IMG/VR virus record: IMGVR_UViG_3300025674_009473
Span: 1-23,527 of that record
Origin: a virus
Strand: one strand, 5' to 3'
Length of the DNA stretch: 23,527 nucleotides
Part shown: positions 2 to 18,312 of the stretch, piece after piece
Position numbering within the stretch: the stretch's first letter is position 1
Layout of the letters: every line of letters starts with the position of its first letter
Made by a program: the position numbers and the translations under genes
The notes under the pieces: generated by a model
Told to the model about the DNA's origin: nothing
The model's database searches: none
The model's input: only the letters and a program-made list of their open reading frames with translations

Positions 2-3000
2 CTTCAAGTAATAAATACTTTAGATGCTAATCCAAGCCTAAGGGGTCAAGGATACGGACGAGAACTTTATGAATATATGGCAGGATATGCCAAAAAGAAA
101 GGTTATGCTGCTTTATATGGAGATGCTGGAACTTCTCCATCCGCTATGAGAGTCGTTGATAGTATAGCTAAAAAAGGAAGCTTTAAGGTAGAGAAAAATA
201 GCGACTTAAAATTCTTTAAAGACGATTTTGATACCACAGGAATGTATGCGAGTGATAGCTGGACATATAGAATGTCTAATAAAGGCTTTGTTCCAAATTA
301 TGCATTATTTTCTCCAGGAGCAAAAAATGTATTATCTACAAATCCTCAATATGCTGGAGCTGTTGCTAGTGCGGTTTCGAGAGAGGCTGCTTTTGGATTT
401 ACACCAAAAGTTGTAAGTGCTCCGTCTTTGAGAAGTAGAAGTAACCCAGGTCTTGCGGTTGTAAATCAAGAGCAAGAGGGAGGAAAGCTTTCAAATGCAA
501 GAAGGTTACATGGGGGATTAAATCCTAAACAAGGAGCAAGTGGAGGTTTTGTTCCTAATTACGCGCCAATAGACCCTGTTACTTTTGCTGCAATAACAAA
601 TTTAGCACAACAAGAAACATCTAGACAAGGTCTTGATGCAACAAAAAGAACAAGAGATGCAGCTAGAGCATCTATAAGTCTAGCTGGAGCAGTTCAACCT
701 TTATCGCAAGAAATGCTTCGTGCTAGAGAAGCATTTGGTCAAACAGCGGTTGCTGCGAGAGAAGCTGCTGTAAGAACTAAAGCATTAAGAGGAAACTTAG
801 TAAATCTTGCTGATAAAAACTTTGCAAGAGAATTATTCAGAAGCGAGTCTGCTAGAAGTTTAAGGAGTGACCCTGTATTAGGGGGTCTTGCTTCATCTTT
901 AATTGGCAAAGGCGGAAAGCTCGATGAAAATGCTCTTAGACAAAGAATGGTTGTAGCTCAAGCAACTGGAGACAAACAAACATTAAACCAGCTTAAAAAT
1001 TTAAATAAAATTATTGAAAAAGATGCTCAGTCTAGATTAAATACTCCAAAAACTCTAGGCACAACAGTAGCAAAAGAATTTAATAAATCTCTGAAAGCAG
1101 ATGCTATGAGAGATAGATTTGCTGCCACAAAAGGATTTTCTAAATCAGAATTAAGAAGAGAGCTTTCAGGAGCATTTTTAGCAAGTAGAGGAGCTTCAAC
1201 CGAGGGAATGACAAAAGGCGAAACTAATAAAGCTCTTTCGGCATTTTTGAAAAGTGGAGGCTCTGAAGCTCAAAAAGCATTTTCTAGGTTCGCACAAGAG
1301 ACTGGAGCAAGATCATCGGTTTCATCGCTTGCAAAAGGTGGTTTGATGAGCGGAGAGTTGAGAGGTCTAACTGGAGCAAGGAGTGCTACAGGCTTTATAG
1401 GGGCAATGAATTCCCTTGAAAAAACTTTAAAGTCTGGAGGATCTGCAAAAGATATAAGGGCTGCCCAAAGATTGGCAATTTCAGAAGCTGCAAAAGCAGC
1501 AGATCCAAGAAATGTTCAAGCATTTCCTGCTCTTGCGGGTGCGGTTAATAATTTAGTAGATGAGCAAAAAAGACAAAACAGAGAAAAGGGTAAAGACGAC
1601 AGGCAGCAAAGAAGATTACAAGCTTCGCAAAGACTTGCAGCTAGAGGTGGAAGATTTAATTTATTCAGAAGTCAATTTGAGGCTGGAAGAGCTGGGCAAG
1701 GATCTGGATTAGGGGGTCTTTTAGGAAGATCCGCTTCTGGCGCATCTGCTGGCTTAAAACAGTTTGCTGGAAGTCTCAGGGGTTTCGGTGGTAATGTAGG
1801 ATTAACGGCATCCTTTGCACTACCTATGCTTGCTGGATTTGTAGGCTCAAAGAGACCAAGAGAAGACAGGGCAAGTTTTGAAGGTGGTCAATTCAGAATA
1901 ACAGAAGGGGCCGCAGGAGAAAGAGCATCGAGTACCCTTATGGGAGCTGGTATTGGAGCATTATTTGGTTTGCCTGGAATGTTAATAGGGGCCGCAGCTG
2001 GATTCGCTACCTCTGCGAGCAAGATGACTTTAAGTATAGAGGAAATAGTAAAGCTGAGAGAAAAAGAAATTGTCGCACTTAATACAAATATTCAAGCAAC
2101 AACTTCATTAGCAAGATTGAACCAGGATAGGGCGAAAGCTTTTGGTTCAGGAAATCTAGCAGCCGTAGGTCAAATTGATGCCGCTATAAATCAAGCGATA
2201 GCTCAAATTACAGATCCAGATATACTTGGAGATGTTTTAGCCGCAAGTGGAAGTCCAGAAGGATTGAATAAAATTCAAACTTCATTACAGAGTAGACTTT
2301 CCCAAGGTGTATCTACTCAAAATTTTGCATTAGCTATTGACAGAAAAAATTCAAGAAACGCTGCAACTTCTTTAGCTAATTTAATTGATCAAAGATTAAG
2401 ATCTGGACAGATAGAGGGAGGAAGAGAAACTGTAGAAAGAACTCTAACTGAAATAAAAGATAATTTAATAAGAACAAGGTCTGCAGGCACCGCAATTGGA
2501 GAAGATGAACTTTTAAGAATCAGAGCAGCTGCAAATGGACGACAAGGAATAACTGGAACACAGGTTGCCGCAGGAGGTGGCACTGCGGCAGGCATATTAG
2601 CCCTGGCTCAATTAATTCCTCAAATAAGAGCCGTATCTATCGGACAAAAATTGCTTGGTGCCGCCGTTGGAGGAACTGTTGTCGGCGGGCAGGTAAAAGA
2701 AGCAGAAACAGAAAGAGCAAAACAACAATTGGCAAATCTAGGAGAAGATCCAACAACAGGAGTTAATGCTCTAGCAGAACTAAGAGATGCAACTATCATT
2801 ACACAGGGTCAATTTGAAGCTTTAAGTGCATCATTTAATGCAGGAATAATAACTTTTGAACAATTAGGAAAAGAACTAGAAAAACAAATTGATAATTTTG
2901 ACAAAGTAAGTAAAGCAAATGCAATACTCGGACAGCAGACTTTTAATTTAGAAAAAGCTTTTAAGCAAACTATTGCGGGATTAAGAAAAGATTCTGAAAT

Positions 3001-6000
3001 ACAAAAAATAAGAGGAGCTTCTCGTCTTTCTACCACAGGATCCATTTTAGATTTTTCTTCAAGGTTTTCTAATAATACTCCGTCATCAAGATTAAATACA
3101 GCTAGAAGTAGAATAGATTTATTTAATCAGGGGCTAGGTTTTAGGACTAGAAGTTTTGAAGCAAACGAATCAGCTCAATTACTGACATCCACAAAAATGG
3201 CAGGAAAAACATTAAGCTTTACTCCTAATATGACATTAGGATTAATCGAATCTGTTGCTGAAGGAGGAGCTGAAGCGCTACAGTCACAAATAGATAGAAG
3301 AAAAATATCTGGTTCAATGAATGTTTTTGGAGGTCTAGAATTTGACCAAAGGAAAGATAATTTAGAAAGGTTTGAAAAATTATTAGAAAAAAATACTGCC
3401 CAAAGCAGAGCTGAAATTGAAGGTCTTTTAGGAACCAACGACCCTGCCGCTTTAGCTCAACTAGAACGATTAATAAAAACTGATAGAGCTGGCATTTTAT
3501 CAGGACAAAATTTGGGGCGAATTGATTTCGAAAAAGAAATATCAGAGGAAGGAAGAGAAGTTCTTCAGGATATTTTAGATAAATCTCAAGATAGAAGAGA
3601 TATTTTAATTGAACAAATAAATGCTGACAGACAAGCATTAAAGCTTCAAGAGGCTCAAACTGCTATACAGGGAAAAATTAATGACTTACTTGGTAAAACC
3701 GCTTCAGCTTCCGCATTAGAAAGTCAAAGAGATAATACTAGACTTGCTGGAAGACTAGCCGCCTCACAAAGAAGAATTTCTGGAATTTCTTTTGAATCTA
3801 GTGATACATTTAGGGGATCTAGGACTGATAAAGAAGAGCGATCAAGGCAGATAAAGTTACAGGAAGATCTTTTTCAAGAAGAATTAAAAGCGAGAAAAGA
3901 TGAAGCAATTACAAGATTAAAGGCAGATGCTAGAAGACTTTTAAGCGAACAGAAATTAATATTTGCATTGAATAATCTTGCGGGTCAAACAAAAGAAATG
4001 CAAGATGCAATGATGGGAACGGGCCAAACGAGCAATACTACAGTCTCAGTTCCTGGATCTTCGGGCGGAGCAGGAGCAGGAGGCCCCGTAACTGTAGCCA
4101 AAGGATTAGCTCGACCATCACAGATGCTTGTAGATAGCTTGAATAAAGGAATTAAAACCGACAGGGGTAGAGTAGCAGCGCTAGAAAGTGAAATTTCCAC
4201 AATCAATAGTAATATAGAATTAGCTAACATAGGAAATCGCCTTAAGAACTCCTCAATATTAAATCGAGTAGAAAATACACTAAAGCCAGCTGACTTAGAG
4301 GCAATGGGAGAAGGATCTGTTCCGTACAAAAAGAAAAGTTCTAGAGTTGAATCTGATAAGGAATATTTGGATAGATTAGTATCGGGAATTTCAGCCAGCA
4401 TTATTCCTACAATGGATTTCGCAACTGGAGAAGAAAATTATTCAAGTGCCCAAGAACAAATCCAAGAAACCCTAAAGAAAGTAACAGGGACAGATAAAGA
4501 GCAAATAGAAGCGCTGCAAAAATTCGTTCAAAAAACGATAGACATGAGCTCTGCTAATGTTGAAAAATACAAAACAGACTTAGATGTAAAAAATCAAGAG
4601 ATTGAAAATTTGACTAAAAGTATAGAAGGGAAAATATCTAAAATAGAAGATATTAGAGGGAATGCTGTAAAAGTAACCGCTTCAACCCCCGATCTTCTAG
4701 AAAAATTAGAAGGTTTGGGTGATATTACTATAACAACAACCGAACAAGCTCTAAAGGCAATAAATGAATTAGGCTTTAGCGTTAGTGATATAGAAAAACT
4801 AAGAACAAGAATATCAGATCTTAAAAATACAGATGGTATAAGTGATGAAACAGTTAATACTTTAGATAGCTTACTTGAAACAATAACTGCTAGTGGTCAA
4901 GAATTGTTAAATTTTGCCGAAAGTCAAAGACTTAAACAATTTCAAGATAAATTTGTAGAATTTACTAAAACATTACAATTCATGGATGAATCCATGGGAA
5001 CATTTAGAGGATTAAGAGAGCTGAATAGCTTGGATATTAGACAAAGGGCTGCAAGTAATACTCTTAGTAATGTATTAGAGCAAGATAGTAGAGAAGTAAA
5101 ATTCCAGACCTTAATGCAAGATCCAACTGCAACAAATGCACAGAGAGCTGCGGCAAAAGTAGCTGCTAGAAGTGAAACGATTGGAACACAAACACAAAGA
5201 GATCAGCTCGTGGAATTTCAAAAACAAGCGGATGCTGCAAGGCAAGAAGTTGCGAGAATTGGAAGAGACACGAATATAACTGATGAAGAGAGAAATAGAT
5301 TAACCAGAATTCAAACAGACAAACTTTCAACTTTAAATAGATCTATGGTAGATTTAACTCTTCAAATGCAAAGAACTACCGCAAGAGATGGTGGAGTGAC
5401 TCAAGAAATACCAACAAATTTAGGGTTAGGACTTGAGCAAGGGTTCGCTGATCTGGAAGCTGAATCCGAACAAATATATACAAGATTAGGAAGAGATTTA
5501 CCTTTTGCATTTAGGGATGGAATGGTTGATGCGATGCAAGCCGCGCTTAATGGAGCAGATAATCTTAGGGACAGATTGAAAGATATAGGTGTTTCATTCT
5601 TACAAATGATACAAAAAGCATTTCTTCAAAGTGCCGCTAATAGAATAACGGGCTCTCTTGGTGGACTTTTTGATCTTGAATTAAATTCAGGAGGAATGGT
5701 AAGGGGTGGTAGCGGAGTGAGAGATGATGTCCCCGCATTGTTGACTGGCGGAGAATATGTAATAAGAAAAAGTGCTGTACAAAAATACGGAACAGGGATG
5801 CTTAGCAGGATCAACCAAGGAGCAATGCCCGCTTTTGCGAAAGGCGGAGCAGTGGATATGAATATAGCAGCTCCAAAGGCAGCTGAAAGAGAAGCTTATT
5901 ACGACAAAAATGAATATGGAAATGTAAAAAGATATAAAACTTTATCTAAAGAAATTGGAATTGATTCAAGATTAACTGGATTTGCGAGAGCAAACGATAG

Positions 6001-6751
6001 AAAAATTTTAGAATTTTTCGGAGAACAACAAAAACAATTCAGAGAAGATTTAGCAACAAAAGAGCAAGAAAAAGCCAGAAAAGAAGCTAAAGCAGAAGCT
6101 AAAAAAGCTCGAAGAAATGCAATACTTGGGGCTGTTGCAGGTATAGCTGGCGGAGTTCTTATCGGAAAAGCAATGGATTGGTATAAAGGTACTGATTTTG
6201 CGAAAAATAGAGCTGCAAAAAAAGAAGCTAAAGCTTTTAATAAAAAATTAGAAAAGTCTGGAAAATATGATTACACTAAAGGTAGGGCCTCATACCAACA
6301 AAGCGGAGCTGAAAGAGCTGGAATAAGGAGGGATATAGATTATTTCCAAGGACAAGGATGGCAAGCTAATGAAATGAGTCAGTACTTAAGGACTCAAGAT
6401 GTTCAGCATAGAATAACAGGAAATCAAACAGATTATAAAGTATCTTTTAATAAGGGTGGACAAGTTCCAGCAATGCTGACTGGAGGAGAATATGTGATGA
6501 GTCCAGAAGCAGTAAAAACTTATGGCTCTCAAATGATGGGAAGCATAAATAATGGAACATTTTCTGGTGGCAATCAAGCTTCAGGAGGGTCGGTTAGTAA
6601 TAATGTAAAAATTAGCATAAATGTAGATAATCAAGGCGGGGTAAGCCAAACATCATCAAACTTAGATACAAAAGAATTTGCATCAAAAGTAAAAGCTGCA
6701 GTTATGGATGTTATACAAAAGGAAAAGAGAGTCGGTGGATCTCTTAGGTAA
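2..6751 (+). CDS. Tail tape measure protein with N-terminal GNAT-like segment (5' partial)
   Basis: The frame is open from the window edge, so the protein is at least 2249 aa and its true start lies upstream; the ATG at 77 falls inside a domain and is not the start. The first ~65 visible residues look like a GNAT acetyltransferase motif A/B (RGQGYG at nt 41-58, then a helix, a beta strand and SPSAMRVVDSIAKKG). Two GFVPNYA motifs follow (nt 284-304 and 545-565). Numbering from the ATG at 77, the rest is Ala/Gln/Arg-rich helix and coiled coil. Hydrophobic Gly/Ala segments lie near residues 572-592, 617-650, 828-871 and 2016-2033. The C-terminus has two copies of the familiar tape-measure signature (DDVPALLTGGEYV near 1882 and VPAMLTGGEYV near 2131). 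Family role: the scaffold that sets tail length, later ejected into the host envelope. The stop TAA overlaps the next ATG by one base. The tape measure call is firm; the GNAT call is by motif only. Confidence 0.94.
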   Translation, partial: LQVINTLDANPSLRGQGYGRELYEYMAGYAKKKGYAALYGDAGTSPSAMRVVDSIAKKGSFKVEKNSDLKFFKDDFDTTGMYASDSWTYRMSNKGFVPNYALFSPGAKNVLSTNPQYAGAVASAVSREAAFGFTPKVVSAPSLRSRSNPGLAVVNQEQEGGKLSNARRLHGGLNPKQGASGGFVPNYAPIDPVTFAAITNLAQQETSRQGLDATKRTRDAARASISLAGAVQPLSQEMLRAREAFGQTAVAAREAAVRTKALRGNLVNLADKNFARELFRSESARSLRSDPVLGGLASSLIGKGGKLDENALRQRMVVAQATGDKQTLNQLKNLNKIIEKDAQSRLNTPKTLGTTVAKEFNKSLKADAMRDRFAATKGFSKSELRRELSGAFLASRGASTEGMTKGETNKALSAFLKSGGSEAQKAFSRFAQETGARSSVSSLAKGGLMSGELRGLTGARSATGFIGAMNSLEKTLKSGGSAKDIRAAQRLAISEAAKAADPRNVQAFPALAGAVNNLVDEQKRQNREKGKDDRQQRRLQASQRLAARGGRFNLFRSQFEAGRAGQGSGLGGLLGRSASGASAGLKQFAGSLRGFGGNVGLTASFALPMLAGFVGSKRPREDRASFEGGQFRITEGAAGERASSTLMGAGIGALFGLPGMLIGAAAGFATSASKMTLSIEEIVKLREKEIVALNTNIQATTSLARLNQDRAKAFGSGNLAAVGQIDAAINQAIAQITDPDILGDVLAASGSPEGLNKIQTSLQSRLSQGVSTQNFALAIDRKNSRNAATSLANLIDQRLRSGQIEGGRETVERTLTEIKDNLIRTRSAGTAIGEDELLRIRAAANGRQGITGTQVAAGGGTAAGILALAQLIPQIRAVSIGQKLLGAAVGGTVVGGQVKEAETERAKQQLANLGEDPTTGVNALAELRDATIITQGQFEALSASFNAGIITFEQLGKELEKQIDNFDKVSKANAILGQQTFNLEKAFKQTIAGLRKDSEIQKIRGASRLSTTGSILDFSSRFSNNTPSSRLNTARSRIDLFNQGLGFRTRSFEANESAQLLTSTKMAGKTLSFTPNMTLGLIESVAEGGAEALQSQIDRRKISGSMNVFGGLEFDQRKDNLERFEKLLEKNTAQSRAEIEGLLGTNDPAALAQLERLIKTDRAGILSGQNLGRIDFEKEISEEGREVLQDILDKSQDRRDILIEQINADRQALKLQEAQTAIQGKINDLLGKTASASALESQRDNTRLAGRLAASQRRISGISFESSDTFRGSRTDKEERSRQIKLQEDLFQEELKARKDEAITRLKADARRLLSEQKLIFALNNLAGQTKEMQDAMMGTGQTSNTTVSVPGSSGGAGAGGPVTVAKGLARPSQMLVDSLNKGIKTDRGRVAALESEISTINSNIELANIGNRLKNSSILNRVENTLKPADLEAMGEGSVPYKKKSSRVESDKEYLDRLVSGISASIIPTMDFATGEENYSSAQEQIQETLKKVTGTDKEQIEALQKFVQKTIDMSSANVEKYKTDLDVKNQEIENLTKSIEGKISKIEDIRGNAVKVTASTPDLLEKLEGLGDITITTTEQALKAINELGFSVSDIEKLRTRISDLKNTDGISDETVNTLDSLLETITASGQELLNFAESQRLKQFQDKFVEFTKTLQFMDESMGTFRGLRELNSLDIRQRAASNTLSNVLEQDSREVKFQTLMQDPTATNAQRAAAKVAARSETIGTQTQRDQLVEFQKQADAARQEVARIGRDTNITDEERNRLTRIQTDKLSTLNRSMVDLTLQMQRTTARDGGVTQEIPTNLGLGLEQGFADLEAESEQIYTRLGRDLPFAFRDGMVDAMQAALNGADNLRDRLKDIGVSFLQMIQKAFLQSAANRITGSLGGLFDLELNSGGMVRGGSGVRDDVPALLTGGEYVIRKSAVQKYGTGMLSRINQGAMPAFAKGGAVDMNIAAPKAAEREAYYDKNEYGNVKRYKTLSKEIGIDSRLTGFARANDRKILEFFGEQQKQFREDLATKEQEKARKEAKAEAKKARRNAILGAVAGIAGGVLIGKAMDWYKGTDFAKNRAAKKEAKAFNKKLEKSGKYDYTKGRASYQQSGAERAGIRRDIDYFQGQGWQANEMSQYLRTQDVQHRITGNQTDYKVSFNKGGQVPAMLTGGEYVMSPEAVKTYGSQMMGSINNGTFSGGNQASGGSVSNNVKISINVDNQGGVSQTSSNLDTKEFASKVKAAVMDVIQKEKRVGGSLR

Positions 6752-7588: not shown

Positions 7589-8353
7589 ATGGCGAAATAT
7601 GTAAAATATAATGAATGCATTGTCTCTATAAATGAAGAGAAAATATTTGCATTAAATGCATCGTTATCATCTAATTCATCAACAAAAGCTAATGTTGTCT
7701 ATGGAGGCGATGTAGAAACATATCAGGCTCCATCCGAATTGTCCGCTTCAGTTTCTTTCGAATATTATGTAACTGGAGAAAGTGATGTAATATCAAATCT
7801 TACTGGAGACATTTCTTGCACTGGATCTTTTGGGGGAATAAATTTCTCAGGAGCATATCTCACAAATTATAGCATAAACATAGAGCCGTATATGCCAGTA
7901 ACATTTAAAGCTGATTTTAATATTTATAGCGGGTATCAAGATTTATTATCAACAGGTCAATTTGGATCAGGAAAATTAAATCTTGCAAATGGAGCTCATA
8001 CATCGCTTACTAATATAAATTATACAAATCTAGGAATGGATAATCCCCAAAGAATAGATTATACTGTAACCTCTGAACGTTTTCCAAACTATGTCATAGG
8101 AGAGGAATTTCCTCAGGATGTTAGGCTTGGTAGTGTTGTAAAAGAAATATCCATGAATGGAGAAGATATTGGTAAAGTAATAAATTTCTCAGGGCAAGAT
8201 TTTGCTCAAATAGAAATACAGCCAGAAACAAATAATAATTTATCTAGAGGTCAACTGATAACATGTAATGGAATTATTAAAAACCAAAATTTATCAGTAT
8301 CAAAAGGTGGATTAGTTAATGGAAATATAGAAATTTTTGAGGTTATAAGATGA
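7589..8353 (+). CDS. Beta-rich minor tail protein, second paralogue
   Basis: This 254-aa protein is predicted all-beta and soluble. It aligns along most of its length with the preceding 278-aa protein, which points to an old tandem duplication. The clearest shared parts are the Gly-rich turn followed by an SGAYLTNYS-type strand (residues 87-95) and the PNYVIGEEFPQ segment. It lacks part of its sibling's C-terminal region, including the acidic MDVDDYE stretch. It starts 1 nt after the upstream TGA and has no convincing ribosome binding site. The ATGA overlap with the next gene supports co-translation. The function is inferred from position only: a structural protein between tape measure and gpM-like protein, possibly forming a ring at the tail end. 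Confidence 0.8.
   Translation: MAKYVKYNECIVSINEEKIFALNASLSSNSSTKANVVYGGDVETYQAPSELSASVSFEYYVTGESDVISNLTGDISCTGSFGGINFSGAYLTNYSINIEPYMPVTFKADFNIYSGYQDLLSTGQFGSGKLNLANGAHTSLTNINYTNLGMDNPQRIDYTVTSERFPNYVIGEEFPQDVRLGSVVKEISMNGEDIGKVINFSGQDFAQIEIQPETNNNLSRGQLITCNGIIKNQNLSVSKGGLVNGNIEIFEVIR
8339..8343 (+). promoter_or_regulatory. Ribosome binding site GAGGT for the gpM-like gene
   Basis: GAGGT lies 6 nt before the ATG at 8350, inside the end of the preceding gene. It is one of the few clear Shine-Dalgarno sequences here and supports this start. Confidence 0.6.
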
Positions 8354-9324
8354 CATTTAATTCTGGAAATTTTTGGAATCTTGAAAAAGATTATTATAGC
8401 GAAGCTACGAATGCTGGAGTAGGAAAATATAATACATATCAAGATTTTATTTCAGGCTCAAAAGTTAATAGTAATCTACTAAACTTTGAGTTTGAAGATC
8501 CTTTTAATTTTATTCCGTCTTATGGCTCTTCTGTTGATTTTGTTTTTGAAGGTATGAATTCTGATTATGGAAACGGCTATTTATATGTTCATCCTTCAGC
8601 CATGAATAATATTATCGCATCTTTTAATTTAAATTTTCAATACAGAAGCGACTCTGAGGCACAAAGGATAATTCAATACTTAAGAGATCGAGATGGGTAT
8701 AAGCAATTTCCATTTCAAACAAAAGAAAGATCTGGCTTATCATCAGCAAATGCATACCAATCACTTTATTCAATAAGCCCTTATTTCATACAAGACTTTT
8801 CTTGTTTTAGTTTTAGTAATGAAAATGAATATGAAGGATCAACATCAATAGCTGCTCAGTTTGTAAATCAGGATTTTTCTATATTAAATATTAAAAATAT
8901 ACTAAAAGTAGAATCGATGCCTCAAGCCAAAAAAGACATAATTGAAGAATATAGGAAAAAATATGTTTTGGATATAATGCCTTCTTATTCAATTTCAAGG
9001 GACATAGAAACTAGAAACTTAAATTTTCAAGACCCAAGAATAAGATTTCAAAGAGGGAATGATGGAATAAATTCTCAGAAAGATTTAACATCTCTAAATT
9101 TTGAAAATATAGATGACGAAAAATTATTGAAAATATTAGCCTTTTTTCTTTTTAAAATGGGACAAGAGTCATTTTCTTTTACATATAAAAATCCAGATCC
9201 TAAGACCGCAGAATTTATATGTGATAGAATTAGCCACACTTATTTATACAAAGGGTCTCATTCTGTTACGGTTACTATACAGGAATCTCCGATAAGAAGA
9301 AGGCTGGAAAAAGGTAACTGCTAA
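8350..9324 (+). CDS. Minor tail protein with two lambda gpM-like domains
   Basis: At 324 aa it is about three times the length of lambda gpM (109 aa) and appears to hold two copies of the fold. Copy 1 (about 90-175) has a strand, then a helix with SEAQRIIQYLRDRDGYKQF, then a strand pair ending in TSIAAQFVNQ. Copy 2 (about 211-313) has RIRFQRGNDGIN followed by SLNFENIDDEKLLKILAFF, then ESFSFTYKNP and a final SVTVTIQES strand. The pattern of helix, Gly/aromatic loop, Phe-rich strand, 'Cys' strand and closing strand fits the phage minor tail protein M family. Known role of gpM: connects tail tube to tail tip complex. The neighbours are gpL- and gpK-like genes in lambda order. The N-terminal ~85 residues are unassigned. 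Confidence 0.8.
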   Translation: MTFNSGNFWNLEKDYYSEATNAGVGKYNTYQDFISGSKVNSNLLNFEFEDPFNFIPSYGSSVDFVFEGMNSDYGNGYLYVHPSAMNNIIASFNLNFQYRSDSEAQRIIQYLRDRDGYKQFPFQTKERSGLSSANAYQSLYSISPYFIQDFSCFSFSNENEYEGSTSIAAQFVNQDFSILNIKNILKVESMPQAKKDIIEEYRKKYVLDIMPSYSISRDIETRNLNFQDPRIRFQRGNDGINSQKDLTSLNFENIDDEKLLKILAFFLFKMGQESFSFTYKNPDPKTAEFICDRISHTYLYKGSHSVTVTIQESPIRRRLEKGNC

Positions 9325-9337
9325 TTTATCATATATA

Positions 9338-10255
9338 ATGGGAGCTCACGATTACAATAAAACGGAATGTATAAATAGAGAAATTTTTTCTCAAAACCCT
9401 TCCGCTGAAATAGTATTTTTTGAAATATATGATATTGCAAATACTAGTGATGTAATTAGATTTCATGGAGGAGTAAATAACTATACAAGATCTTTATTCT
9501 TTGATGCTAAAGAGTATTTTTATGTTCCATTTCTCGAAGAAGACTTTGGGGTAAGATCTGATGGGAAGATGTCTAGGCCATCTCTTTCATTAATTAATTT
9601 TCAAGGATTTTTCTCTAGATATATAAAAGATAAAGACGATTTACTTGGAGCAAAAGTAAGGAGAATTAAAACCTTTATAAGGTTTATTGACGAAGTTAAC
9701 TTCTTAAATTATTCAGGGGATCAAGATTACTGGAGGAGTATGGGAATAAACCCTGACCCTTTGTCAAAATTAAGAGACGAAGAGTGGGTAATAAACCAAA
9801 AGGTTACAGAAAATAAAAATTTAATAAAATATGAATTATCAAGCCCTTTGGATCTAGAAAATGCCGTAATTCCAAATAGGCAAATTATAAACAATTATTG
9901 CGTCTGGAAGTATAGAGGTAATGGCTGTAAGTACTCTGGAGTTCCTTGTGCAGACTCAAATGATGTAAAGTTTACTGGAGCACTTAATAATAGAGGCGTA
10001 TGGGCAGAAGGAGTAGCATATGCAAAGAATGATTTTGTATCTATTTCCGTAAGAGAGGGTAATTCATCTAGAAATGTCGTTTTTGTTTGCATATCAAATC
10101 ATACATCATCCGAAGATAAAAAACCCAGTATAAATAGTTCTCTTTGGGCTCAAGATTCTTGTTCTAAATCTTTAAGAGGTTGCAAGTTGAGATTTACTGG
10201 AGAAGAAGATGACCATCTTCCATTCGGCGGATTTCCTGGTAGTAGACTTTTTTGA
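9338..10255 (+). CDS. Lambda gpL-like minor tail protein with 4Fe-4S cysteines and inserted CBM-like module
   Basis: This 305-aa protein matches lambda gpL in layout. The N-terminal beta domain runs to about residue 180. The C-terminal Cys domain has NNYCVWKYRGNGCKYSG (C188, C197) and C275/C282 before RFTGEEDDHLPFGGFPG. In lambda gpL four Cys ligate a 4Fe-4S cluster, and C188, C197, C275 and C282 are the expected ligands; C204 is extra. Between the two Cys pairs sits a ~55-residue insert (about 217-272) with GVWAEGVAYAKNDFV, then VVFVCISNH and a closing SLWAQ. This resembles the small aromatic carbohydrate-binding (CBM5/12-like) modules seen in phage tail proteins. No Shine-Dalgarno is seen before the ATG; the stop overlaps the next start. 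Tail-tip role is firm; sugar binding is inference. Confidence 0.92.
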   Translation: MGAHDYNKTECINREIFSQNPSAEIVFFEIYDIANTSDVIRFHGGVNNYTRSLFFDAKEYFYVPFLEEDFGVRSDGKMSRPSLSLINFQGFFSRYIKDKDDLLGAKVRRIKTFIRFIDEVNFLNYSGDQDYWRSMGINPDPLSKLRDEEWVINQKVTENKNLIKYELSSPLDLENAVIPNRQIINNYCVWKYRGNGCKYSGVPCADSNDVKFTGALNNRGVWAEGVAYAKNDFVSISVREGNSSRNVVFVCISNHTSSEDKKPSINSSLWAQDSCSKSLRGCKLRFTGEEDDHLPFGGFPGSRLF

Positions 10256-10629
10256 TGAATAAAAATATTGAAAATTTAATAAAAGAAATTTGTCAAAAGA
10301 ATAAACGAATAGAATCTTGTGGCGTCATACTAAAGCATAAAAGTGGAGATAGGGTGATTGAATGCGAAAATGCATCAACTAATCCAGAAAAAAATTTTGA
10401 AATAAAATTAAGCGATCAAGTTAATCTAATAAAAAACGGAAAGATATTGGCTGTTTTCCATTCTCATATAGATCAGGACGAAAAATTTTCAGATACAGAT
10501 ATAAAACATTCCGAAGAATTAATTGCTCCATATATTGTTTATAGTTTGAAAACAAAAAAATTTAATACATATATACCAAATTTTGCAAAAAGAGATAAAG
10601 ATATTAAAAACTTTTTCAAAATAGTGTAA
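10255..10629 (+). CDS. JAMM/MPN+ peptidase, lambda gpK N-domain-like
   Basis: This 124-aa protein is a compact JAB/MPN metalloprotease domain. The zinc motif is complete: E20 (RIESCGVIL), H69 and H71 (VFHSHID), then S79 and D82 (SDTD), fitting HxH-x7-SxxD. The strand with ENASTNPEKNFEI is typical of the family. Lambda gpK has this domain followed by an NlpC/P60 peptidoglycan hydrolase; here the NlpC/P60 half is absent. Known role: tail-tip assembly factor that probably processes a tail component. I chose the ATG at 10255, which overlaps the upstream TGA (TGATG), over the in-frame TTG one codon earlier. It is followed by the gpI-like gene, as in lambda. Confidence 0.9.
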   Translation: MNKNIENLIKEICQKNKRIESCGVILKHKSGDRVIECENASTNPEKNFEIKLSDQVNLIKNGKILAVFHSHIDQDEKFSDTDIKHSEELIAPYIVYSLKTKKFNTYIPNFAKRDKDIKNFFKIV

Positions 10630-10648: not shown

Positions 10649-11380
10649 ATGATCGAGGTATTTTTAGTAGGAAATTTAGGTAAGAAATTCGGAAAGAAGT
10701 GGCAATTTGATGCAGATACCCCCATGGATGTTTTTAAAGCATTAGATGCAAATAACGATGGGTTTATAAAATATTTAGCAGAAAAAGAAAGAGAGAATAT
10801 TAAATATAGAATATGGGTCGATAAAAAACCTGTTAGTTCAAAGGAGTTAGATATCGAAATAAATTCTAAAAAGAAAATGCTTGTAATGCCAGTAATGGCT
10901 GGTTCTGGCCTGACACTCGCTCAAGAAATGATGGCTTATGGAGGAGCTGGATTGATAACTGGATGGGGGCTTAGTTGGTTAGGAAATAATTTGTTTGAAG
11001 GTACTGTGTGGGGGAATATGTTAGGGTTTGTGGGCGATGTTCTTTTTGAGGTCGGGGCGGCTTTATTAATTCAAGGCGTTATATCCTCACTAATGGATGA
11101 GCCCGAAAATCCAACCCCCCAGCAAGAGGATTCACTAAAATCGTCATCATCTTTTATATTCTCAAACCCAACCAATAATGTAATTCAAGGAGCAAGGGTT
11201 CCAGTAGGATACGGTAGATTAAGAATAGGAAGTCATGTTGTGTCATCGTCAGTTCTTAATTGTAGGATGGTTAATTACGAGCAAGTGAGTTTTGAAACAA
11301 ACACAGATTCTGATGCTGGAAGTAAAGGGCCAAAAGAAGTTGCAACTACAGTGGTAGGAGCAGAAAGGGTTATTTCATAA
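10649..11380 (+). CDS. Lambda gpI-like tail-tip assembly protein
   Basis: This 243-aa protein has the three-part gpI layout. Residues 1-80 form a ubiquitin-like (beta-grasp) domain ending in KKMLVMPVMAG. Residues about 95-148 are Gly-rich and hydrophobic with two membrane-like stretches. Residues 167-198 carry SSSFIFSNPTNNVIQGARV followed by PVGYGRLRIGS, a signature of the family. In lambda, gpI acts with L, K and J to start tail-tip assembly and is not clearly kept in the virion. The last ~45 residues (from about 199) look unstructured and Ser/Thr/acidic. The stop TAA overlaps the gpJ-like ATG by one base, fitting coupled production with its partner. Confidence 0.93.
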   Translation: MIEVFLVGNLGKKFGKKWQFDADTPMDVFKALDANNDGFIKYLAEKERENIKYRIWVDKKPVSSKELDIEINSKKKMLVMPVMAGSGLTLAQEMMAYGGAGLITGWGLSWLGNNLFEGTVWGNMLGFVGDVLFEVGAALLIQGVISSLMDEPENPTPQQEDSLKSSSSFIFSNPTNNVIQGARVPVGYGRLRIGSHVVSSSVLNCRMVNYEQVSFETNTDSDAGSKGPKEVATTVVGAERVIS

Positions 11381-14300
11381 TGGCGATAAATATATTTTCA
11401 CCAGCAAAGAATTCTAAACCTAAGATATTTCTTAGAGAAATTACTGGTGCATTTAATGTATCTGATAGAGATAGAGAATTACTGCAGTCGAATTCTTTTT
11501 TTAAAGCTGTTGATTTAGTTTCTGAAGGACCAATTGAGGGTTTCGTTGATTACACAGGAAAACTTGTTTCTGGAGCTGAAATTCTAAAAGGAATATATAT
11601 AAATGATGTTCCTGTAATGACTACAGACATAGGGTCTAATGATGGGCAGCTTAATTATAGAAATATATCTGTAGCTTATAAAAATGGAGAAGTTGGTCAA
11701 TCTGGATTTTTTACTGGACAAGGAACATCTAGTAAAGTAGCAGATGATAATTTTTACTGGCTGGAAGATTTTTCTTACACATCAAAAACATTAAACAAAG
11801 GAACAGCTTTATATAATTCAAAAAAATTAGGAGCCACTACAGTTAATAAATTTTATATTGGATCTCATTCGGTTCAAGATGAAGATGTTGACTGGATAGG
11901 TCTAACTATCGCGATAAATCAATGTTATTTAATAAATTCCGACGGAGAACAAACTGCAAATGTGGGTACATTTCATATATGGGGAGATATCACAGGAGTT
12001 CATCACAGGACAATGCCTGGAAGAGTTGTAAGCGGAATAAATGATGATGGAATTAATAGCCATAATGTATTCTTAAAAGTATCTGGCATCGCTTCTTCTC
12101 CTTATAGAGAAGATATATTTTTTAAGTTAAAAGATTTAAACGGAAAAAGACCTAGAAAAATATACATAGAAAATTTAACTCCTGAAAGAGAAAACTTTAA
12201 ACAAAATTTTTCTGCAGATTTTGCTAGTGTTACTGAGATAACAACTTCAAATCTATCTTATCCACATTCAGCATATGTAGGTACAATTTTTACCGCAGAT
12301 AATTTAGGCAACATACCGACGAGAACATTTGATTTAAAATTAAAAAAAGTAAGGGTTCCTAGTAACTACGAAGATTTAGGTGAGGGTGTTGATGGGCCAG
12401 TTAGAGAAGATAGGCATGTTGGAAATTGGAACGGATCTTTTAAACACGAACTAGAATGGACTGATAATCCTGCTTGGATATTTTACGACTTAATAACGAA
12501 TGATATTTACGGAGTAGGCGAATATGTAAAAGATGTAAAAATCGATAAATGGCAATTATATAAAATTGCAAAATACTGCGATCAACTTGTAGAAACTTCA
12601 AAAGCAGGTAAAACTCAAAAATTTGTAAAAGAAAGAAGATTTACATGTAATATATATTTCCAAAATGCAATGGAAGCCATAAAGGCTTTAAACGAAATAG
12701 CTTCCATATTTCGAGGAATCGCATACTTTAATGCAAATGAAATATTTGTATCAATGAATTCTCCAAAGGAATCATTATTCAAATTTAATAATGACAATGT
12801 AAAAGATGGAATATTTAATTATGTAGGAGCCGCAAAACAAGCTAGGTTTACCGCTATAAAAGTTGCATACAAAGACAAAGATGATTCTTTCTTGCCTAAA
12901 TATGAATATGTAGAAGATGCAGAGGGCATAATAAGGTATGGACTAATATTAAAAGAAATAAGTGCCGTTGGTTGCACTTCTAGAGATCAAGCTTTAAGAC
13001 TTGGTAGATGGATATTATTAACATCAACTTTAGAAGAAGAAACGGTTTCTTTTGTTACAGATAAAAGTGCGCACTATTTGCAGCCTGGAGATGTATTTTC
13101 TATATCAGATCAATTAAGAAACGGAATAAAGTCTGGAGGAAGAGTAAAGGAAGTAGTTGGGGACAACAATACAGTAAGCGACAATTATATTTTATTAGAC
13201 CAAAATCTAGACACGGGTAATTATAATTTTTCAAGCATAAGTTTTCTTATTCCTGGTAGAGATTTTGATGAAGACACTCAGCAATTTAAAGAATTTGTAC
13301 ATAGAAATGGATTAAATATTGGTTCTGCTGACGATGGAACTAGAGGAAGTTTGGTTGAGATACCATTAGATTCTTCGTCATCAAGCAACACAAACTTAAA
13401 TAATTATATAGAAAATACTCCTTCTGGAGCCAAAATTCTAACACATGAATTAGAAGATCTAATATTAAAAGAAACTGTCACAGGCTCAAAAATAAGTGCG
13501 GCGGGAGGTTTTAAAACTTTAAATGACTATTTCTTAAATAGCGGCATTTTAAATAATTTAAGAAATGGGGCTGAAAGAAAAAATGTAACAGATAAAATTT
13601 TAGATGGTTCAATTTATATATTGCATGGGTCAGGTGATGGACACCAAAGCGGCGAGTTCACAGAAAAAGATTATTCTTTATTAAAAAAACAGGAGCTTGA
13701 TGATGGAATGTTTTCCGTTATTGGTGTTGAATATAATTCTGGAAAATTTGATAGAACCGACTTACCGTCAACTGTATATACAGATCCAACTTTTCCAAGT
13801 GAACCAATAAGAGAGCCTAGAGATCCAGTTGATGATCCCGTAACTTTTGACCCATTACCTGAAGGCGAGATAATACCACAGCTTCCTGTTTTTGGTTATC
13901 CAGAAGAAAATACTGTAGATTTAATAATTAAACCGTCTGGTTTTGTTAATACAGAAGGTCAATTAAGATCAAGAGTTTCCTATTATTTTCATAATACAGC
14001 AGAAAATCAAAAATATTATTCTAACGGAGATGCTGTTGATGGCAGATATGAAATAAGAGTTCGTGAAGTTGATTCAGTTTACTATGCAAATTTACTGTCA
14101 ACTATAGATAATGGAGAAAATATACTACAAAACGGTCAGTTTTTAATATCAGGATCTCAAGAATGCGGGGATTATAAAGTTTTATATGATAACCCTCAAG
14201 GAATTTCTATAGATAATAAAGCTACTATTGGGGGAGAACAAAATAAAGGATTGTCTCTTACTAATTATCAAGAAGGAGAATTTAGAGACGAAGTAAATTT

Positions 14301-17300
14301 CAAAAGATCCAGAATAATGCTGGATGCGGCTGATCTAAAAATATCTGGATGTGATGTTTTTGGAAATCCGTATGGCGATCTTAATAATGATAACTGCTTG
14401 ATTACGGGAGGGGTTTTATCTGGAGAGTTTGAGCTACCTAACCCTTCTGCCTTTTATGAATTAAGATGGTGTGAAGCAAATAGTTTTGGAAGGAGTCCTG
14501 AAAAAATTATGTTCTTTCAGGCTGAAAGCGACACAACTCCTCCTGGGCCGTGCTCTAATTTTACAGTTCAGAAAATTTTTGATAACATTCATTTTAATTG
14601 GGTTAATCCATCAGATAAAGATTTAAACCACTTAAGGATATATACAGGAAGTAAAGACAGCACACCCTTACCTTTAGATTCCGACTTTCTAATAAAAACA
14701 GATACAAACTTCGCTGTTTATCCAGTAAATCAATACGGAGGAAGATCATACCCTGCAACACTTTCGAGAGACGGAGAATTTCATATTAGAGCTGTTGATC
14801 ATGCTGGAAATATAGGTGATGCAATAGATGTAAATAATCCTTTATCAATATCTGATACAATTAATGCTCCAGAATTATTTTTAAGCGGAGATGTAAAAAC
14901 TAACCCAGACGGAGTACAAAACTCCTATATGGCAATATTTTATTCTGGGGACTTTAATTTTGATGATGATTTTAAAGAATATAAAGTTGAAATTAGAAAC
15001 TCTGCAAATTCATTTGTTGAAACAATATCATTACCAAGGGTAGATAATTGTGGTGTTGTTAAACCTCAGTGCTCTGGAAGGTATGACTATCTTGGGGTTG
15101 GGGGAAGAGAATATAATGTAGGAATAAGAGTTTCTGATTTACAGGGTAATTTAGGTCCACAAACCCAAAGAAACTTTACAGTGCCTTTTGATGATGTTCC
15201 GCCTGGTAGACCTACTTGGGTAGAGAGTGTAAAAAATGGAAATAACTTATTTTTATCTTGGGAGAATCCTCCTGATGCAGATTTAAGTAGAATACTTCTT
15301 TACACTGGGCATCAAAATTTTACTGGAACGGCAGACGGAACTTTTGTGCATCAAGAGGCTAGATTTAATTCTGAAGTAATTCCATTGAGAGATTTCGGCG
15401 GAAGGCAAAATCAAGATTTATATTTTTGGCTTAGAGCTGTAGATACATCTAATAATACAGGAGACTTTAGTATAGGTAATACATCAAGCCCCGCTAATCA
15501 TAATACAGGACAGCAAGTTTTTATTTCACCACCTTCAAATCCAAGCCCTGCTGATATAACTTTTTCAAGCGGAATATTTAATGATGAAAATGGAGATGGC
15601 TCATCTTATGCTTTTATTAATTATAAAATAGAACAGCCTGTCGATTACAATCAATCGAGTTATAAAGTCCAATTATCAAGAACTTCTGATTTTTCAACTT
15701 TAGTTGGTACGGATACATCTTTCATTGAGTACGGAGCAGTCAATATGACTGGAAGCGGAATATTTAATAATTTATTAGCTAATTCTGATTATTTCGCAAG
15801 ATTTAGAGTAAACTCAAAAGACGGAAGTTATAGTCAGTATATCTTGCCATTAAATAAATTTAGACCAATCAGAACTCCGAAGGATGATACATTACCAACT
15901 AATCCAAATTCTTTTTTTATAACATCTGGGCCAAAGCAAAACTATTTAGAATGGGAATGGGGTAATGGAGTTTCTTCCGATTCAGCTCAAATACTAGTAT
16001 ACAAAACAGGTATTCCCACAGGAAGACTTAACGAAAATTCAAGTCAGAATAAGTATTGCTGGAAGACAGAAGATATCAGTGGGTATTTCCTAGCTAATGA
16101 AAGTGAATATGCATATTCATTAAATCCTGGAACAGCATTTATAGATTCCGATGTTGAAAGCGGAATTTTTAGTGGATATGGAGTTGATTCTGAAAATAAA
16201 AATCAAGAGCCAAAACAAGAAGTTCTGTATCATTATTTCTTAAGAACAGTAGATAGATCAAACAATACAGGAGTAGGATTTGTTTCTGGAATATCTACAA
16301 CAAACCATACGGATAATACTTCCGCTAAATATACAAATACTCCACATACCTTGGGTTATGTTACTGGTGGAGCAATAGGCGATTCATATATTGAGAGTGT
16401 AAGAGCTGGAAAAATATTAACAGACAGAATTACTTCAAATACTTTTATTTTAGCAAGGCCCAGTGGGAGAATATTGAGTGATGATTCTTATGTAAAAGGA
16501 ATACCAAGCGAAGGAAAATTCTCTTATGCAAATGGAAGTGGAGTTTATATAGATCACTTAATGTTCAGGATTGGAGATCCTAGCCCTGGGGGGCAAGGTC
16601 TTTTTTGGACAGGAGAAAGATTAGCAGATGAAACTTTTAAACAACCCACATTCAGGGACAAAATAGGCCACGATATAGTTCCAAACACTCTTGAAATAAG
16701 AGGGAATATGACTGCTGGAACCATTGAAATAGGAGCTGACCCAAAGAGTCAATTTAGAGTTGATGAGGAAGGCCAACTAAGTATAGGTGATCAAAGCTTA
16801 AATATATCAGGATTCTTTACTGGAAACATGGGTCATTCTGGAGATGCATTACCAGTAAAATTTCAATTAAATGTAGAAGACTATACCAATGATCCTTCTT
16901 TAGATAATACTGCATATACTGATTTATTAAATAGATTAGATAATGCAGCTGATGGAGGAGGTTTTATTGAAATAAATTATTGGGTTGGTGATGATGGCGG
17001 AAGACCCATATACCAACAAGAAGTAAGAGGATTAACTCAAGGAAATTTTCCAACTGTATCTAGAGGATCTGAAGATTATAATAATAATTTCGGTACGGTT
17101 TTTGCCAATAGTCCAGTGATAGGTCCTCCTAGAAAAAAGTTTGACGGAAGTGCAATTCCAAACCCTAATAGGAACGGTGTTTATACACATGACTCGCAAC
17201 TAAATGGCGCAAGAAGAGATTGGTGGAGAGTTATAGATGTTAAGTTTTTAGTAACAAATGACGGTAGGCTATATGCTCAAGATGCATCAATAAATGGAAC

Positions 17301-18312
17301 TATAACAGCAAATAGTTTTGAGCCGAGACAAACTATTATTCTTGGGGATGAAATTAATCCAGGGGATTCTGTAATAAAAAGTTTTTTATTTAACAATGTA
17401 AATTGTGGTGCATCAACTAACCCATCTGGTTTTGAAATAAGGGGAGATGGTCGAGCAACATTTAATGATTTAGTTGTAAATTCTGGGAGTATAAGTGGGG
17501 CGACTATAGCAGTTGGCGCTTGTGACTCAGAAAATCATTTCAGAGTTGATTCATTAGGAAATATAAGTATTGGTCCAGCATTACAATTTGATAGTGACAG
17601 AAATGATTTCCATGTAAGCAATGAAGGTAAACTTTATGCAGTTGATGGAGTATTTAGTGGTACTATAAGCGGAAGTGCTGGAAGAATAGGTGGTCTTGAG
17701 ATAAACCAAAACTTTATAGGTACTGTTGGCAGAACTAGTTTAAATGATTCTGATGTGGGTTTATTTCTGAACAAAGATGGTGAATTTTCAATAGCTAATA
17801 GTGTTGGTAATATTATTAAATATGATAATACTAATGATTTTATAACAATAACTGGATTAAGAAGCACTTCTTTTAATACATCAGAAGGCTCAGATGGAAA
17901 AGGTTTGGGTTTTTATATTAGAGGAAACCAAACAGCAGAAACATCATATATATCAAATTTCTTAACTGATGGTTGGAGTTCCACAGGAATTGCAAAAAAT
18001 ATAGACACTCAATTATGTGGAGAAATTAAATTTCCAATAGCAGGAGAAAGATATTTTATAGTAAGCGGAAGTAGGGTGGAATATTTAGTTACAGACATTG
18101 ATTATGATGCAGATGTTGAATTTACAACTAATGACGCAAATAATCAGCCTGTATTTACCGCAAGCGAGGGAAGTGCTGGAGGAACTATCCACTCATCAAA
18201 CGGAACAATTACTCCCGCAACACTATCTCAAAACGGAGATTTGTATGTAACAATTCCAGCCGCATCAACCGCAACTGTTATGAGATTTAATGTTGGATTT
18301 AGAAGATCTTAA
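11380..18312 (+). CDS. Lambda gpJ-like tail-tip host-specificity protein, giant form
   Basis: At 2310 aa this is about twice the length of lambda gpJ (1132 aa). The N-terminal hub resembles gpJ: FFKAVDLVSEGPIEGFVD near 45, WIFYDLITNDIYGVGEY near 366, and a GRWILLTSTLEEETVSF/QPGDVF core near 542-575. A Pro/acidic linker lies near 805-835. From about 1052 to 1640 there are alternating fibronectin-III/Ig-like units: three with W-x-[NG]-P-type cores and AVDxxxNxGD ends (nt about 14533, 15195, 15885), separated by two of a second type (about 14860, 15535). The C-terminal third has at least six F-x-V-x-x-x-G-x-L strands (nt 16753, 17245, 17431, 17539, 17608, 17764), typical of the gpJ central fibre. 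Family role: tail hub, central fibre and receptor contact. The final ~80 residues form a separate Ser/Thr-rich domain, probably the tip. Confidence 0.94.
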   Translation: MAINIFSPAKNSKPKIFLREITGAFNVSDRDRELLQSNSFFKAVDLVSEGPIEGFVDYTGKLVSGAEILKGIYINDVPVMTTDIGSNDGQLNYRNISVAYKNGEVGQSGFFTGQGTSSKVADDNFYWLEDFSYTSKTLNKGTALYNSKKLGATTVNKFYIGSHSVQDEDVDWIGLTIAINQCYLINSDGEQTANVGTFHIWGDITGVHHRTMPGRVVSGINDDGINSHNVFLKVSGIASSPYREDIFFKLKDLNGKRPRKIYIENLTPERENFKQNFSADFASVTEITTSNLSYPHSAYVGTIFTADNLGNIPTRTFDLKLKKVRVPSNYEDLGEGVDGPVREDRHVGNWNGSFKHELEWTDNPAWIFYDLITNDIYGVGEYVKDVKIDKWQLYKIAKYCDQLVETSKAGKTQKFVKERRFTCNIYFQNAMEAIKALNEIASIFRGIAYFNANEIFVSMNSPKESLFKFNNDNVKDGIFNYVGAAKQARFTAIKVAYKDKDDSFLPKYEYVEDAEGIIRYGLILKEISAVGCTSRDQALRLGRWILLTSTLEEETVSFVTDKSAHYLQPGDVFSISDQLRNGIKSGGRVKEVVGDNNTVSDNYILLDQNLDTGNYNFSSISFLIPGRDFDEDTQQFKEFVHRNGLNIGSADDGTRGSLVEIPLDSSSSSNTNLNNYIENTPSGAKILTHELEDLILKETVTGSKISAAGGFKTLNDYFLNSGILNNLRNGAERKNVTDKILDGSIYILHGSGDGHQSGEFTEKDYSLLKKQELDDGMFSVIGVEYNSGKFDRTDLPSTVYTDPTFPSEPIREPRDPVDDPVTFDPLPEGEIIPQLPVFGYPEENTVDLIIKPSGFVNTEGQLRSRVSYYFHNTAENQKYYSNGDAVDGRYEIRVREVDSVYYANLLSTIDNGENILQNGQFLISGSQECGDYKVLYDNPQGISIDNKATIGGEQNKGLSLTNYQEGEFRDEVNFKRSRIMLDAADLKISGCDVFGNPYGDLNNDNCLITGGVLSGEFELPNPSAFYELRWCEANSFGRSPEKIMFFQAESDTTPPGPCSNFTVQKIFDNIHFNWVNPSDKDLNHLRIYTGSKDSTPLPLDSDFLIKTDTNFAVYPVNQYGGRSYPATLSRDGEFHIRAVDHAGNIGDAIDVNNPLSISDTINAPELFLSGDVKTNPDGVQNSYMAIFYSGDFNFDDDFKEYKVEIRNSANSFVETISLPRVDNCGVVKPQCSGRYDYLGVGGREYNVGIRVSDLQGNLGPQTQRNFTVPFDDVPPGRPTWVESVKNGNNLFLSWENPPDADLSRILLYTGHQNFTGTADGTFVHQEARFNSEVIPLRDFGGRQNQDLYFWLRAVDTSNNTGDFSIGNTSSPANHNTGQQVFISPPSNPSPADITFSSGIFNDENGDGSSYAFINYKIEQPVDYNQSSYKVQLSRTSDFSTLVGTDTSFIEYGAVNMTGSGIFNNLLANSDYFARFRVNSKDGSYSQYILPLNKFRPIRTPKDDTLPTNPNSFFITSGPKQNYLEWEWGNGVSSDSAQILVYKTGIPTGRLNENSSQNKYCWKTEDISGYFLANESEYAYSLNPGTAFIDSDVESGIFSGYGVDSENKNQEPKQEVLYHYFLRTVDRSNNTGVGFVSGISTTNHTDNTSAKYTNTPHTLGYVTGGAIGDSYIESVRAGKILTDRITSNTFILARPSGRILSDDSYVKGIPSEGKFSYANGSGVYIDHLMFRIGDPSPGGQGLFWTGERLADETFKQPTFRDKIGHDIVPNTLEIRGNMTAGTIEIGADPKSQFRVDEEGQLSIGDQSLNISGFFTGNMGHSGDALPVKFQLNVEDYTNDPSLDNTAYTDLLNRLDNAADGGGFIEINYWVGDDGGRPIYQQEVRGLTQGNFPTVSRGSEDYNNNFGTVFANSPVIGPPRKKFDGSAIPNPNRNGVYTHDSQLNGARRDWWRVIDVKFLVTNDGRLYAQDASINGTITANSFEPRQTIILGDEINPGDSVIKSFLFNNVNCGASTNPSGFEIRGDGRATFNDLVVNSGSISGATIAVGACDSENHFRVDSLGNISIGPALQFDSDRNDFHVSNEGKLYAVDGVFSGTISGSAGRIGGLEINQNFIGTVGRTSLNDSDVGLFLNKDGEFSIANSVGNIIKYDNTNDFITITGLRSTSFNTSEGSDGKGLGFYIRGNQTAETSYISNFLTDGWSSTGIAKNIDTQLCGEIKFPIAGERYFIVSGSRVEYLVTDIDYDADVEFTTNDANNQPVFTASEGSAGGTIHSSNGTITPATLSQNGDLYVTIPAASTATVMRFNVGFRRS

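Follow-up and report, generated by a model that had tools for sequence, protein, structure and literature searches.

A GNAT-fold module among motif-bordered, exchangeable cassettes in the tape measure proteins of uncultured lambda-like siphophages

The window analysed here is the entire IMG/VR record IMGVR_UViG_3300025674_009473 (23,527 bases), with no upstream DNA of its own. It begins inside a tape measure gene, whose frame (2..6751, +) is open over 2249 aa from the window edge, and this gene lies upstream of the tail-tip genes phrog_14, phrog_18, phrog_30, phrog_32 and phrog_31 (J), in that order (Table 1). The window genes tested match lambda-like tail families and not the gene cluster of a contractile injection system, with its sheath and DUF4157 partner. 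The JAB protein (10252-10629) contains TYIPNFAK near its C-terminus, which was considered as a cargo motif and dropped, its relatives being without it; this occurrence is probably due to chance. At the other end of the window, a long frame on the minus strand (21364-23526), open at the window 3' end, has Thr-Pro-rich repeats, and its product is probably a fibre or surface protein. Another contig, L006 (IMGVR_UViG_3300010297_000319, 12.3 kb), has 100% protein identity to window 5000-6748; it begins inside the tape measure and stops short of the GNAT.

Table 1. Features of the window, module orders of related tape measures, and loci of the commonest cargo module.
Feature	Location or order	Strand	Basis
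GNAT module, C-terminal ~94 residues only	2..283	+	PF00583 above gathering score; 84-86% identity to complete L002:9827-10282 module; AlphaFold2 and Foldseek on complete module
Module-border motif GFVPNY, residues 95-100	284..301	+	Motif scan
Last cargo module, label B, ~87 aa, REAAFGFTPKVV...NPGLAVVNQEQE...HGGLNP	284..544	+	Relatives; GNAT-B junction as in L099
Second module-border motif GFVPNY, residues 182-187	545..562	+	Motif scan
Conserved C-terminal tape measure part, ~2060 aa, including two LTGGEYV repeats	563..6751	+	35% identity over 2297 columns to L004 (PF10145 N-core)
Minor tail protein (phrog_14), tail-tip gene cluster	8350..9324	+	E=4e-15
Minor tail protein (phrog_18), lambda gpL-like position	9338..10255	+	E=2e-59
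Minor tail protein (phrog_30), lambda gpK-like position, JAB-like HSH...S..D signature	10252..10629	+	E=3.5e-23
Tail assembly protein (phrog_32), lambda gpI-like position	10649..11380	+	E=4e-35
Central tail fibre J (phrog_31)	11380..18312	+	E=8e-120
Module order, L004 and L106	C-E-A-D-I-B		
Module order, L013	C-F-A-D-E-B		
Module order, L017	C-A-D-E-B		
Module order, L099	C-A-G-H-A-D-E-B		
Module order, L019 (cut)	C-A-F-D-A-E-H-G-F-D-A		
Commonest cargo module	L008:6560-7363, L086:10247-11014, 21 further loci		

The first 103 residues of the tape measure frame match Pfam Acetyltransf_1 (PF00583) with E=1.9e-4 and 22.1 bits, against a gathering cut-off of 20.7, and the match spans residues 7-39, which is the motif-A region. 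The part of the GNAT module found in the window includes motif A (R-G-Q-G-Y-G), a helix, a strand, the S-P-S-A-M-R-V-V-D-S-I helix and the terminal strands, and corresponds to the C-terminal ~94 of ~150 residues, with the N-terminal ~58 residues falling off the window. Both the loop and the S-P-S-A-M-R-V-V-D-S-I helix are nearly invariant across 9 homologous modules. The same part also aligns with positions 1013-1095 of phrog_37402, a 2639-position phage family without known function, and here again the GNAT-like part lies mid-way in a very long protein.

The window is without the tape measure N-core and the N-terminal third of the GNAT, and this missing upstream part was taken from relatives. 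The closest relative, L002, was found by a viral-contig scan with the window GNAT part, to which it is about 83-84% identical; its frame opens with the tape measure core and has the complete GNAT module at residues ~1414-1565. The whole GNAT and the tape measure N-core (PF10145 or close homologues) lie in a single open frame in L002, L004, L013, L017, L019, L020, L099 and L106. Wider scans found the GNAT module in L004, L013, L016, L017, L019, L020, L099, L101 and L106, plus duplicate contigs, and in each of these the module is part of a tape measure, either complete or truncated by the contig end. The PhageMin_Tail domain or tape measure N-core is present in L002, L004 and L007; PF10145 matches relatives with E=1.9e-25 and 2.1e-26 (the latter in L002), PHROG tape measure families match to E=5.5e-54 (to E=2.1e-50 in L002), and the N-core is homologous to SPbeta YomI-type tape measures of cultured phages (E about 1e-24). 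L099 encodes a complete tape measure of 4140 residues, in which the module immediately after the GNAT is the same last module that the window has. The stand-alone 179-aa GNAT frame of L104:9695-10231 and L105:9695-10231, with 38-39% identity to the cargo GNAT over the core, is a possible source of the cassette.

The preliminary description had placed a GNAT-like motif A and a motif-B-like helix at 2-200, in one frame with a tape measure and with no stop between the two. Both elements are present and Pfam supports the motif-A region above its cut-off, with the end of the domain at about nucleotide 283 instead of 200. The fusion is confirmed by the relatives, in which one continuous frame, free of frameshifts, runs into the PF10145 core, and at least eight other tape measures carry the GNAT. 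In the relatives, the domain sits mid-protein and not at the N-terminus. The GNAT fold itself was also recovered when structure prediction was applied to the complete module. Based on alignment A5 (10 sequences), the AlphaFold2 model has a pLDDT of 86.6 and a pTM of 0.82, with the element order strands, a helix after the R-G-K-G-Y-G loop, strand, helix and strands. Foldseek against the PDB gave 38 matches at E<=1e-3 and probability 1.00, almost all of them GNAT proteins; the best is RimI 5isv (E=1.3e-4, probability 1.00, TM 0.53), and others at probability 1.00 are Naa50, GCN5 and AAC enzymes, with TM-scores to solved GNATs that are moderate (0.39-0.56 by query length). In the Foldseek viral library an unnamed 895-residue protein came first (E=2.8e-9), followed mostly by acetyltransferases. 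A PDB sequence search with the GNAT profile gave weak matches (best E=0.19), three of the four being named acetyltransferases. By its predicted structure, the domain is a real GNAT-fold module.

The acetyl-CoA loop, R-G-[KQR]-G-Y-G, is at the same place in every aligned GNAT module, and the strictest conservation covers L59-I62, R72-G77, L96-D99 and S105-K115, which comprise the CoA loop together with neighbouring strands and helices. Between the window and L002, the GNAT part has dN 0.086, dS 1.67 and dN/dS 0.05, with dS near saturation; across module pairs with computable dS, dN/dS is 0.05-0.39. The GNAT module is under strong purifying selection. In RimI, the general acid is a Tyr in the motif-B helix. 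This Tyr is not evident in the motif-B helix of the cargo GNAT, where it seems to be replaced by Val, so catalysis is not assured. By eye, the invariant Asp99 of the cargo GNAT lies near the position of RimI Glu103.

Between the constant N-core and the conserved C-terminal part, the tape measures contain a cargo region of variable length, the modules of which were labelled with C for the first module, E for the GNAT and B for the last (Table 1). The position of the GNAT differs between tape measures, modules A, D and F are repeated within L019, and module B is the last one in L004, L012, L013, L017, L018, L020, L099, L101 and L106. The N-cores of L019 and L020 are 90% identical and their GNATs 49%, whereas L019 and L099 have 73% identical N-cores and 88% identical GNATs, and L013 and L017 have 78% and 95%, respectively; identities discordant in both directions indicate that the GNAT cassette moves between tape measures. 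On comparison of the sequences, the modules are thus shown to be reordered, duplicated and exchanged between phages. In the six complete members of the window clade, the N-core has 543 +/- 3 aa, the C-part 2176 +/- 53 aa and the cargo 756-1331 aa: the cargo length is free, and the N-core and C-part lengths are constrained.

The cargo modules open with the motif G-[FLYH]-[IV]-P-N-[FY], often as A-S-x-G-F-I-P-N-F-A. In 78 non-redundant tape measures it was counted 377 times, vs 0.7 in shuffled sequence; outside tape measures, it was found 4 times in 276,236 aa of neighbouring frames, all in one gene family. What had first been described as a lone enzyme domain fused to a tape measure is a true fusion, and also one of many interchangeable modules with G-x-[IV]-P-N-[FY] borders, a feature that had been overlooked. 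The motif probably serves as a structural linker, an anchor or a release site, letting independent folding units share one tape measure. Codons at the motifs vary, and no clear DNA-level repeat that could act as a recombination point was seen there by eye. Such tape measures were identified on about 200 contigs from uncultured phages: the profile of the first module (A2) found 197 relatives in viral contigs, of which 80 were kept, as well as four contigs of metagenome-assembled genomes (MAGs) labelled Neomarinimicrobiota, Flavobacteriales, Flavobacteriaceae and uncultured. In most members, the first and last modules are accompanied by a single cargo module of ~250-310 residues, and those of the window clade have about 4-11 modules per tape measure. 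In INPHARED, no homologue of the first module was found, and searches with the start of the window tape measure, and with the GNAT module at E<=10, gave no cultured relative of the cargo region. The human faecal phage H41 had a GNAT-module match at E=0.01 in INPHARED, and it probably shares only the GNAT core.

The cargo inventory extends beyond the GNAT. An SNase domain (PF00565) was found above the Pfam cut-off in L070:10001-13141 (residues 116-210 of the stretch), as was HIGH_NTase1_ass in L068:10001-15283 (residues 790-830 of the stretch), both in tape measures without a GNAT; L002, L004, L019 and others have the GNAT plus many distinct modules in one polypeptide. L045 carries a module homologous to the SNase module of L070, and the cargo module of L068 has P-loop-like and cytidyltransferase-like stretches. 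In a scan of 21 cargo regions, most modules had no recognisable family, and none of these regions matched a peptidase family. Invariant F-E, F-D and D-x-K characterise the commonest single cargo module (cluster 3, alignment A4, ~250-310 aa). By this motif pattern it resembles PD-(D/E)XK nucleases and is a candidate for that class, with an AlphaFold2 model at pLDDT 68.6 that gave no significant Foldseek match; clusters 5 and 15 have a similar pattern, F-E ... D ... E-x-K. Other stretches were noted by eye, with no profile above cut-off: kinase-like in L048 (tape measure residues 1484-1746), ADP-ribosyltransferase-like in L038 (1241-1496), metallopeptidase-like in L070 (1075-1302) and ParB-like in L071 (887-997; PF02195, E=0.03). 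Residues ~2144-2244 of the L002 tape measure resemble PGDYG (PF14083) at E=0.0014, also below cut-off. Module G has glycine-rich hydrophobic stretches.

Here it is proposed that the GNAT, one of several interchangeable cargo modules located mid-way along the tape measure, is most probably a virion-borne effector cassette in an uncultured lineage of lambda-like siphophages. Its delivery, catalysis and target we infer. As part of the tape measure, the cargo would pass along the tail lumen and be ejected together with the DNA or ahead of it. It would fold inside or at the host cell; there the GNAT may acetylate a host component, or block one by binding, ahead of any phage gene expression. The need for acetyl-CoA would place the action of the GNAT in the cytoplasm. 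Different cassettes could suit different hosts or defences, which would explain their fast exchange. Delivery is suggested because tape measures are expelled and make contact with the inner membrane, as that of lambda does with ManYZ during injection (PMC13190303), and because contractile systems eject tape measure-related effectors with exchangeable domains (PMC13277306). More broadly, the chances appear about even that the tape measure is a modular effector magazine in a large aquatic siphophage lineage, with motif-bordered enzyme cassettes that are recombined and delivered by the tail before expression, and with the motif as a dedicated plug-and-play element (linker, lumen anchor or release site).

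The GNAT could instead be a decayed or structural domain, its fold kept for tail assembly as a spacer or lumen-filling bead with no enzymatic role. The lack of an obvious catalytic Tyr in motif B would agree with this, as would other modules that are hydrophobic or helical without an enzyme signature, such as module G; however, conservation is strictest at the acetyl-CoA loop and its surrounding strands and helices, dN/dS is low, and cargo sets that vary freely between an N-core and a C-part of fixed lengths fit a required spacer poorly, which makes this alternative unlikely. Still more doubtful is that the tape measure is a polyprotein with G-x-[IV]-P-N-[FY] as the protease site, the modules of which would be cut out before assembly and act late in the producing cell or enter the head. 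A motif repeated at module borders does look like polyprotein sites, and a JAB-type protein is encoded downstream, though such proteins are common in lambda-like tails; yet the modules are flanked by two tape measure parts that would have to function jointly after cutting, no phage protease was identified, and no sign of cleavage was seen. An artificial joining of the GNAT to the tape measure by chimeric assembly, or a chance motif-A look-alike, is improbable in the extreme, for although the window fragment begins at the end of a contig and its own junction is not covered exactly by another contig, the junction of the GNAT with the next module is repeated in L099 and is thus no assembly error, the fusion is found again in many contigs, which come from different samples, and Pfam, AlphaFold2 and Foldseek agree on a GNAT.

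If the cassettes reach the host, the phages would have a changeable set of enzymes at entry, before transcription, when DNA-targeting defences act, and the tape measure would turn from a ruler into a carrier. The border motif might provide a natural tag for the delivery of tail-loaded proteins, and effector domains of unknown family could be found as whatever sits between two motifs. This raises the question of how a folded domain of 150 residues would fit, or unfold, within the tail tube.

Searches of open-access papers, a scope that makes this weak evidence, found no description of GNAT-bearing tape measures or of tape measures with motif-bordered exchangeable cassettes. To our knowledge, the enzyme-bearing tape measures known so far have one or two fixed domains and no exchangeable cassettes. 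Tape measures with enzymatic motifs have mainly peptidoglycan hydrolases, as in mycobacteriophage TM4 (PMC1796659). As in TM4 and the SPbeta YomI-type transglycosylase tape measures, where the domain acts at infection, the enzymatic domain here is inside the tape measure; unlike theirs, a GNAT cannot attack peptidoglycan, which implies a cytoplasmic acetyl-CoA-dependent target. The virion RNA polymerase of N4 has a single dedicated function and is no tape measure. It is a very large virion-packaged enzyme transferred with the DNA (PMC5512222), and the proteins described here resemble it in size and proposed virion carriage and differ in being tape measures.

The polyvalent proteins of phages and conjugative elements (Iyer et al. 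2017, PMC5512222) contain many unrelated, often enzymatic domains, including GNAT, and are predicted to be injected with the DNA. Like them, the tape measures described here are large polypeptides in a late or structural gene context, with many distinct modules and, in some, a GNAT; most modules here are without an assigned activity. Unlike them, the carrier is a tape measure, a term that PMC5512222 never uses, the phage proteins in that account being likely packaged in the capsid, and the modules are bordered by the repeated G-x-[IV]-P-N-[FY], with no peptidase domain confirmed here, a processing peptidase being a frequent though not universal part of polyvalent proteins. Acetylation of a host target also has a precedent in phiKMV Rac, an acetyltransferase that acts on host RNA polymerase, as cited in PMC7824862. 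By analogy, Rac is the nearest functional precedent for the cargo GNAT. phiKMV Rac and T4 Alt modify host proteins covalently early in infection, and unlike the cargo GNAT, each is a protein of its own, either made early or carried in the head, outside the tape measure. The Sle1/Tme effectors of contractile injection systems (PMC13277306) are alike in having a tape measure-related carrier with interchangeable domains, theirs being coiled-coil and ejected from the tail tube. Those systems are nanomachines of bacteria that have a sheath and a DUF4157 partner, with a single C-terminal domain, whereas the tape measures described here belong to phages with lambda-like tail-tip genes and have up to 11 motif-bordered internal modules.
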